Assembly: GCA_003054695.1 (NCBI GenBank)
Contig: QAZA01000011.1
Span: forward strand, 62,001 to 126,000
DNA from: Verrucomicrobia bacterium LW23
GTDB taxonomy: Bacteria > Verrucomicrobiota > Verrucomicrobiia > Methylacidiphilales > UBA1321
Reading direction: 5' to 3'
Length of the DNA stretch: 64,000 bases
In this document: positions 54,427-56,250 of the stretch, in pieces
Layout of the letters: each line of letters begins with the position of its first letter
How positions within the stretch are numbered: the first letter of the stretch is position 1
Position numbers and translations under genes: made by a program
Notes under the pieces: model-generated
What the model saw: the letters and a program-made list of their open reading frames with translations, nothing else
Database searches by the model: none
What the model was told of the DNA's origin: nothing

Positions 54427-55236
54427 ATGATGCATATTTTTGTGACAGGCACCGATACGGACGTGGGCAAAACTTACTTTGGCGCTTGGCTTTTACGGCA
54501 GTGGCTGGCGGCGGAGAAAGGAGACGCCGCGGCTGGTCACTCCCTCGCCTTCAAGCCCATATGCAGCGGCGGGCGGGGGGACGCGGAGGCATATGCGGCG
54601 GTGCCGGGGCACGGGCTTTTGCTGGACGAGATTAATCCGCTGCACTTTCGCGAGCCGCTCAGCCCGCTGGCCGCGGCGGCCGTGGAGGGGCGCGAGGACG
54701 GGATGGACTTTGCAGACATCGTCCGCCTGAATGCTCATGTGGTGCGCGTCGCGGCGAAGCGCCAGGCGCAACGCGTTCTGGTGGAGGGAGTTGGCGGCTG
54801 GCTTGTGCCGCTGGGCAAGAATCCCACGCTGCTGGTGCGCGACTGGGCGCAGTCCCTCGGCTGGCCCGTGGTGGTAGTGGCGCGCGCCGGGCTGGGCACG
54901 CTCAATCACACGTTGCTTACTGTGGAAAGCATTCAGGCCGCGGGACTTACGTGTGCGGGCGTTGTGCTGAACGAAGGCGCGCCGGCTGCCGTCGGTGCTC
55001 CGAGCGTATCCACCCCCGCCCCGCAATCCCCAGCGACGGCCCCCGAAGGGCCGTCAGCACCAGGGGTCCAGCGCTCCGCGCTGGCGTCAGCTACCGGGGT
55101 GCAGCGCCCCGCGCTGCCTTCGGGTGTAAACGGCGCGATTCTCGTTGCCCTTACGGGGCTTCCCGTCTTTACCTTCCCGGCCGGCGCGGAAGGCGTCGGC
55201 CTCCTCCCGGTCTGGCTGTCGGGCAAACAGGCTTAG
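54427..55236 (+). CDS. bioD: Dethiobiotin synthetase with repeat-derived C-terminal extension
   Basis: The 269-residue enzyme has P-loop GTDTDVGKT at residues 8-16, the conserved FKPICSGG and VEGVGGWLVPL segments, and a VARAGLGTLNHTLLT motif, so it should make dethiobiotin from diaminopelargonate, CO2 and ATP. After GVVLNE (about residue 178) the protein leaves the family pattern for a Ser/Ala/Pro-rich stretch of about 50 residues containing two GVQR-AL motifs, encoded by palindromic repeats. It then resumes with ILVALTGLPVFTFP. It overlaps tsaD tail to tail by 150 bases. No other biotin gene is adjacent. Confidence 0.88.
   Translation: MMHIFVTGTDTDVGKTYFGAWLLRQWLAAEKGDAAAGHSLAFKPICSGGRGDAEAYAAVPGHGLLLDEINPLHFREPLSPLAAAAVEGREDGMDFADIVRLNAHVVRVAAKRQAQRVLVEGVGGWLVPLGKNPTLLVRDWAQSLGWPVVVVARAGLGTLNHTLLTVESIQAAGLTCAGVVLNEGAPAAVGAPSVSTPAPQSPATAPEGPSAPGVQRSALASATGVQRPALPSGVNGAILVALTGLPVFTFPAGAEGVGLLPVWLSGKQA
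55035..55117. repeat. Three tandem palindromes inside bioD and next to the tsaD stop
   Basis: GACGGCCC/GGGCCGTC (55035-55042 and 55048-55055), CCAGCG/CGCTGG (55068-55073 and 55079-55084) and GCAGCG/CGCTGC (55101-55106 and 55112-55117) form three consecutive hairpins with 5-base loops. They encode the odd Ser/Ala/Pro region of BioD in one direction and supply the end of tsaD in the other. Similarity to the palindrome at 52815 suggests a dispersed short repeat that can be inserted in frame. Confidence 0.7.
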
Positions 55237-56250
55237 GTTCGGGTCGATATCCGCCCGAATGCGCGGGTGGATGCCGGCGGCCAGCTTGCCACCGGCCACC
55301 GCCGCAATCATCGCCGCGTTGTCGGTGCAAATCGAAGCGTCGGCCAGCATCAGGTCCAGCCCCTGATGGCGGCACTCCTCCGCCAGGGCCTGGCGCAGTA
55401 CATTGTTGCACAGCACACCGCCGGCGGCCAGCACGCGGGGCACGCCCGTGCGCAGTGCGGCATCTACCGTTTTGCGCACAAGTACCTCCACCACAGCGGC
55501 CTGGAAGGATGCGCAGACATCGGCCAGCATGTTGCCGTCGGTCAGCACCTCCGGGTGGCGCTCCGCAAAATAACGCACGGCCGTCTTCAACCCGCTAAAG
55601 CTGAAGTTATAGTTGCCCGCCTGCATAAAGCTGCGGGGAAAATCATAGCGCGTGGGGTTGCCGTGGCGCGCCATCTTCTCCACCTCCGGCCCGCCCGGGT
55701 AGGGCAGGCCGAGCAGCTTGGCCACCTTGTCAAAGCACTCGCCCGCCGCGTCGTCGGCCGTGGCGCCGATGCGCTTGTAGTCGTCCCACGAGCGCACATG
55801 CACCAGTATCGAGTGCCCGCCACTTGCAATAAGCCCCAAAAACGGGAACGCCACCGGGCGGCGATGCGTGAGAAACGGCGAAAACAGGTGCGCCTCCAGG
55901 TGATTCACCCCGATGACGGGCTTGTCCGCCGCAATCGCAAACGCCCGCGCGTAGCTGTGGCCGATGAGTAGCGAGGCGGCCAGACCGGGCCCTTCCGTCA
56001 CGGCCACGGCGTCGATGAGTCGCGGTGTTAACTCGCAGTCCTGCAAGGCGTTATGCACAAGCCGGGGCAGGTTCAGCAGGTGCTCGCGCGTCGCAACCTC
56101 GGGCACCACTCCGCCGAAGGGCGCATGCCGGGCAATCTGGCTGGCAATGTGGTTGACAACGACGTAAAAGCTGCCGCTATACGGAGGATCCTCCTGCACA
56201 ATCGCGACGCTTGTTTCGTCGCACGAGGTTTCGATGCCAAGAATAACCAT
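55087..56250 (-). CDS. tsaD: tRNA N6-adenosine threonylcarbamoyltransferase
   Basis: The 387-residue protein begins LGIETSCDET, has metal-binding His in NHLEAH (about residue 116), a second motif GLIASGGHS, and the nucleotide-binding LAAGGVLCNN. TsaD transfers threonylcarbamoyl to A37 of tRNAs that read ANN codons, together with TsaB and TsaE. Family members are usually about 340 residues long; here about 35 extra basic residues follow LSLFARQPD, and these are encoded by sequence that overlaps bioD and the palindromic repeats. The tail is therefore probably a read-through extension. Confidence 0.93.
   Translation of the reverse strand: MVILGIETSCDETSVAIVQEDPPYSGSFYVVVNHIASQIARHAPFGGVVPEVATREHLLNLPRLVHNALQDCELTPRLIDAVAVTEGPGLAASLLIGHSYARAFAIAADKPVIGVNHLEAHLFSPFLTHRRPVAFPFLGLIASGGHSILVHVRSWDDYKRIGATADDAAGECFDKVAKLLGLPYPGGPEVEKMARHGNPTRYDFPRSFMQAGNYNFSFSGLKTAVRYFAERHPEVLTDGNMLADVCASFQAAVVEVLVRKTVDAALRTGVPRVLAAGGVLCNNVLRQALAEECRHQGLDLMLADASICTDNAAMIAAVAGGKLAAGIHPRIRADIDPNLSLFARQPDREEADAFRAGREGKDGKPRKGNENRAVYTRRQRGALHPGS

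Follow-up and report, generated by a model that had tools for sequence, protein, structure and literature searches.

A strand-oriented two-hairpin repeat at the tsaD stop codon, read in frame within bioD of Verrucomicrobia bacterium LW23

The bioD–tsaD locus

The window, a stretch of 64,000 nucleotides from the genome of Verrucomicrobia bacterium LW23, carries the convergent genes bioD and tsaD together with a set of palindromes in and beside the region where they overlap. The features, in window positions, are as follows.

54427-55236, forward strand: bioD, dethiobiotin synthase, 269 aa (open reading frame, family match, alignment with 23 relatives and AlphaFold model)
55087-56250, reverse strand: tsaD, tRNA threonylcarbamoyltransferase, 387 aa; with the terminal QRGALHPGS and the stop codon supplied by the repeat
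55087-55236, no strand: tail-to-tail overlap of the convergent bioD and tsaD, 150 bases; found also in the sister genus
55023-55088, reverse strand: full copy of the two-hairpin element (SL2, ACCCC linker, SL1) in the tsaD orientation (alignment and covariance model R1)
55035-55055, no strand: SL1 hairpin, GACGGCCCCCGAAGGGCCGTC (sequence and compensatory changes among copies)
55068-55084, no strand: SL2 hairpin, CCAGCGCTCCGCGCTGG (sequence and alignment of copies)
55085-55117, reverse strand: truncated second copy, with the SL2' hairpin (55101-55117), the linker and GGTAGCTGACG, and without SL1
55087-55089, reverse strand: tsaD stop codon TGA, part of the element sequence GTAGCTGACG; SL2 of the full copy follows after 2 bases

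Both gene products matched their families well above the curated cutoff levels (BioD, TIGR00347, 136 bits; TsaD, TIGR03723, 390 bits). The 150-base overlap given by the first-pass annotation is exact, and the three hairpins that it placed within 55035-55117 were located as palindromes at 55035-55055, 55068-55084 and 55101-55117. The second and third palindromes are spanned by a direct repeat of 33 bases, in which 55085-55117 is identical to 55052-55084 at 27 of the 33 positions. The full copy was scored by covariance model R1 at 79 bits (E 3.7e-14). RNA folding of a 106-base piece of bioD gave a z value of -2.0, which is not strong alone because the region is GC-rich.

An odd stretch of BioD with two GVQR-x-AL motifs had been noticed, and reads TAPEGPSAPGVQRSALASATGVQRPALPS. 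BioD was also supposed to run past the normal end of its family, but alignment with 23 relatives places the extra residues internally, where they follow the conserved N182 and precede the usual C-terminal end (VNGAILVALTGLPVF...LPVWL). In this alignment, the repeat-encoded insert covers about residues 200-231, inside a loop enlarged over about 186-232. About 30 residues are contributed by the element, and a further 12-15 or so (AAVGAPSVSTPAPQS) lie outside the element model. Because the ancestral loop sequence is gone, the exact insertion point is unreadable. In the alignment, BioD retains its P-loop along with the remaining invariant residues. The AlphaFold model has a mean pLDDT of 82.9, with residues 188-217 below 50, and the closest PDB structures to this model are dethiobiotin synthetases, the fold being kept; the core fold is predicted to be intact, with the insert forming a low-confidence loop.

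TsaD indeed carries about 40 extra C-terminal residues compared with most of its family, but this tail is common to relatives without the repeat. Only its end is different: the last nine residues, QRGALHPGS, and the TGA stop are derived from the element, and the final residues of the relatives (PGEIEVW and alike) are missing. We infer that both altered proteins, BioD and TsaD, are functional.

The age of the overlap is indicated by a sister genus of the same family, hereafter g2. In six g2 genomes, bioD and tsaD are convergent and overlap by 123-141 bases without the repeat, and BioD is 214-218 aa and TsaD 377-381 aa in length; covariance model R1 gave no match in any g2 genome. In more distant relatives, TsaD is about 340-345 aa and the overlap is 21 bases or less. 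The proposal that the repeat created the overlap was to fall if relatives showed the same overlapping tails and no repeat, and the six g2 genomes refute it in this way; the length of their TsaD likewise contradicts the proposal that the repeat lengthened this protein. It is hardly credible that one insertion made the overlap and extended both proteins past their normal ends: the element does encode the stop and the final nine residues of tsaD, and BioD and TsaD each exceed the average length of their families, but overlap and TsaD length are found in six repeat-free relatives and BioD keeps its own C-terminus after an internal insert. What holds of the original idea is that a single site changes both proteins, BioD inside and TsaD in its last nine residues; what does not hold is the extension of both tails.

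Five of these six genomes have the sequence TCACCAGA, as seen from the bioD strand, at the tsaD stop. There the stop falls in the BioD loop between the conserved asparagine and the next segment, and the same loop holds the element in LW23; the insertion site therefore corresponds, within the limits of the alignment, to the old tsaD end. The five genomes keep TCACCAGA here, with serine encoded by TCA in genes that are GC-rich, and this may reflect selection for the tsaD stop.

A dispersed composite repeat

The genome has 34 occurrences of the SL2 motif at up to three mismatches, where a reversed-pattern control gives 2; in the window there are 2 occurrences, with 0.02 expected. With the covariance model, 54 places were identified, of which two were discounted as duplicates between contigs C9 and C10, leaving 52 distinct copies, 51 at E <=1e-5 and one weak. 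The annotation of the palindrome as a dispersed element lying in frame within a gene is thus borne out, both by these 52 copies and by the BioD insert as compared with the 23 relatives. The two element copies on C9 and C10 have identical flanks on both contigs, and these contigs seem, for this reason, to have a duplicated or redundant stretch in common.

When 26 copies were aligned in the orientation of most host genes, the order was CCAGCGCGGGGCGCTGG - ACCCC - TGTNGCTG - ACGGCCC...GGGCCGT - CGCGGGGGA, in which hairpin SL2 is followed by a linker carrying a GTAG-like tag and then by hairpin SL1 (in short, SL2-ACCCC-TGTNGCTG-SL1), in a unit of about 66 bp. The tag is GTAG in 15, GTTG in 15 and GTGG in 6 of the 52 copies, and two bases (CT) separate it from the stem. 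Both-sided changes were detected at 4 of the 16 predicted base pairs among the aligned copies: two SL1 pairs in six or seven copies, another SL1 pair in one copy and one SL2 pair in three copies. On the bioD strand, the consensus has no stop codon in any of the three frames.

The analysis revealed neither a target-site duplication at the element nor an empty allele nor a transposition event, no T run follows SL1 or SL2 in the aligned copies, and nothing near the gathering score was found in Rfam. No REP-associated transposase was detected in the genome by Pfam PF01797 and NCBIfam, in an assembly that is 95% complete. The transposases present are IS200-type TnpA genes only, none of them flanked by the element; as the element is absent from the ends of these genes, they were rejected as its carriers.

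Another genus of the same family, g3, contains a diverged form of the element, with SL2 as CCAGCGTGACGCTGG or GCAGGGCTGAGCCCTGC, the linker ACCCAGTAGCTG and SL1 as GACGGCAC...GTGCCGTCGC; the usual tag is GTAG, and the copies are also often located at stop codons. The g3 linker pattern matched 29 and 22 times in two g3 genomes (G004 and G002), compared with 1 and 2 for the reversed control, and was not above control in g2. At five g3 loci, the stop codon of the host ORF lies inside the SL2 loop (GCGTGACGC, GCGTAACGC, GGCTGAGCC). Vertical inheritance of the sites was considered and rejected, the g3 hosts not being orthologous to those of LW23 (one weak match of 28%). The dispersal of copies and the difference of sites between genera suggest that the element is mobile. 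With a strict pattern for the composite element, only LW23 was matched among 387 genomes of the phylum, a sample that lies apart from g3; one named match elsewhere is Verrucomicrobium sp. isolate HJP_bin11.

Placement behind stop codons and proposed history

The distance to the nearest stop codon was counted at the loci around the copies, using same-strand ORFs of at least 120 aa and random positions drawn from the same DNA. The element starts within 20 bases after a stop in 35 of the 52 copies (random positions, 3.6%) and within 3 bases in 25 (random positions, 0.9%), while a gene end on the SL1 side instead was found for only 2 copies. Since this control is uniform, part of the post-stop excess reflects the insertion tolerance of DNA behind genes; the precision of 0-3 bases is not accounted for by such tolerance alone. 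The genes so followed include genuine ones such as rpsD (ribosomal protein S4), groEL, fabI (enoyl-ACP reductase), mreB, glucan branching enzyme and ybaB, and rpsD of six relatives ends at the identical residue without the element. The bioD–tsaD copy shares the usual orientation and is found 2 bases past the TGA of tsaD.

Hairpins so placed could be an ordinary terminator or another cis-acting RNA element of the convergent pair, immobile in either case, and the RNA-like compensatory changes agree with such a role. Against it stand the lack of a T run and of an Rfam family, the rpsD orthologues of six relatives that do without the element, the different hosts in the two element-bearing genera and the copies within several coding regions, so that we regard this role as very unlikely.

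The copies within coding regions bear on another alternative, a plain in-frame insertion into bioD like that of the Rickettsia elements or intragenic REPs, with the position of the tsaD stop a coincidence. In-frame copies are found at residues 460-482 of an AMP-binding ligase (L085, 122-2059, forward strand) and, just before the domain, at residues 213-235 of a DUF2339 membrane protein (L135, 3153-6734, forward strand), both read in the same frame as in BioD (TAPEGPSATGVQRPAL). A further in-frame copy (L137, 3693-4451, forward strand) immediately precedes a pilin-like (N-)methylation motif, GFSLVELLIVLG; the leader peptide may be encoded in part by this copy, or the copy may not be translated at all. 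Two spanning ORFs without Pfam match were left out of the intragenic cases. Because no known same-strand gene end is present at the ligase and DUF2339 copies (at least two such cases), placement behind a stop is not the sole route into genes. The ligase insertion is not polarised, as no close counterpart was found in the family at E 1e-60. These in-frame copies favor a plain intragenic insertion into bioD, but the orientation and the 2-base distance to the tsaD stop follow the genome-wide post-stop rule, and a coincidence at this locus is judged unlikely.

We consider it probable that an ordinary post-stop insertion took place behind tsaD and landed in bioD because the genes were already nested, the bioD frame then being kept by selection. 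This is the most economical account, as orientation, 2-base distance and old stop position agree. The element would be a strand-oriented REP-like repeat of this Verrucomicrobiota lineage that usually settles immediately behind stops. In the likely order of events, the ancestral tsaD would already have had its end within the 3' portion of bioD; one copy, accompanied by a second, truncated one, would have arrived at the tsaD stop in the usual orientation; and the same event would have added codons to the BioD loop, because the tsaD stop site lies inside bioD. Two events were perhaps needed, since the tsaD stop before the full copy lies in the truncated copy. The surviving bioD keeps its frame and predicted fold, presumably by selection, and as the consensus is open in all three bioD-strand frames, length was the single constraint. 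On the tsaD strand a TGA comes with the element, and TsaD therefore stays close to its former length, with a changed terminus.

A wider generalization is more doubtful, namely that a mobile two-hairpin family integrates specifically at stops, or with the stop in a hairpin loop as in g3 (GCGTGACGC, GGCTGAGCC), spreads nearly harmlessly in this manner and enters proteins mainly via overlapping genes.

Intragenic palindromic repeats are already known, and in the present case one can follow how the repeat entered the gene: where a post-stop repeat meets a nested stop, two proteins of core metabolism are edited at once. The bioD–tsaD pair is a clean natural test of insertion tolerance in a convergent overlap, and the post-stop rule, under which half of the copies fall no more than 3 bases from a stop codon, opens the choice of target to direct testing.

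Comparison with known palindromic repeats

In E. coli, REPs located within 15 nt of the stop codon limit translation (discussed in PMC12306157). The present element shares with them hairpins a few bases from stop codons, but differs in sequence and build, the likeness being one of placement in the sequence alone. Compared with an intrinsic terminator, the element has the GC-rich hairpin but no T run in the aligned copies.

The in-frame palindromic elements of Rickettsia (Ogata et al. 2000, 2002; reviewed in PMC10969869) likewise insert into genes of unrelated function and are tolerated as extra residues, and BioD, as compared with 23 relatives, has an in-frame palindrome in a gene that the relatives have without it. 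Rickettsia belongs to a different phylum and its elements are compared here by unit size and placement; they are about 150 bp, with some families largely intragenic, whereas the present element is about 66 bp and mostly post-stop. The likeness to Rickettsia drawn at first thus stands for the in-frame intragenic palindrome, but in build and preference for gene 3' ends the element is closer to GTAG-tagged REPs.

The GTAG and CGTC REPs, among them the REPs of the verrucomicrobium Opitutus terrae, prefer gene 3' ends, can supply stop codons and occur inside ORFs (Di Nocera et al. 2013, PMC3733652). GTAG REPs and the present element are both short GC-rich palindromes in tens of copies with compensatory stem variation, and in both many copies lie at the 3' ends of genes, some provide the stop codon and some fall within ORFs (PMC3733652). 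The tag of GTAG REPs is an unpaired GTAG at one end of the hairpin; the GTAG, GTTG or GTGG that precedes SL1 here, two bases away from the stem, may be its counterpart. In LW23 the short palindrome is repeated in 52 copies, mostly extragenic near gene 3' ends (35 of 52). In g3, a gene for a REP-associated tyrosine transposase (L172 of G004, 1381-1925) has on either side classical GTAG REP pairs built from the same SL1 hairpin (GACGGCAC...GTGCCGTCGC), the flanks being REP pairs and not the composite element. The LW23 element departs from GTAG REPs in joining two dissimilar hairpins, always in the same order and direction: SL2, then the ACCC(C) linker, the tag and a further two bases, and finally SL1. 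In addition, roughly half of its copies start no more than 3 bases from a stop codon, and no REP-associated transposase was found in the LW23 genome. By the criterion of a RAYT gene flanked by the repeat, the element is REP-like rather than a full member of the GTAG REPs; repeats of this kind are known, and its construction from two hairpins is unusual among them.
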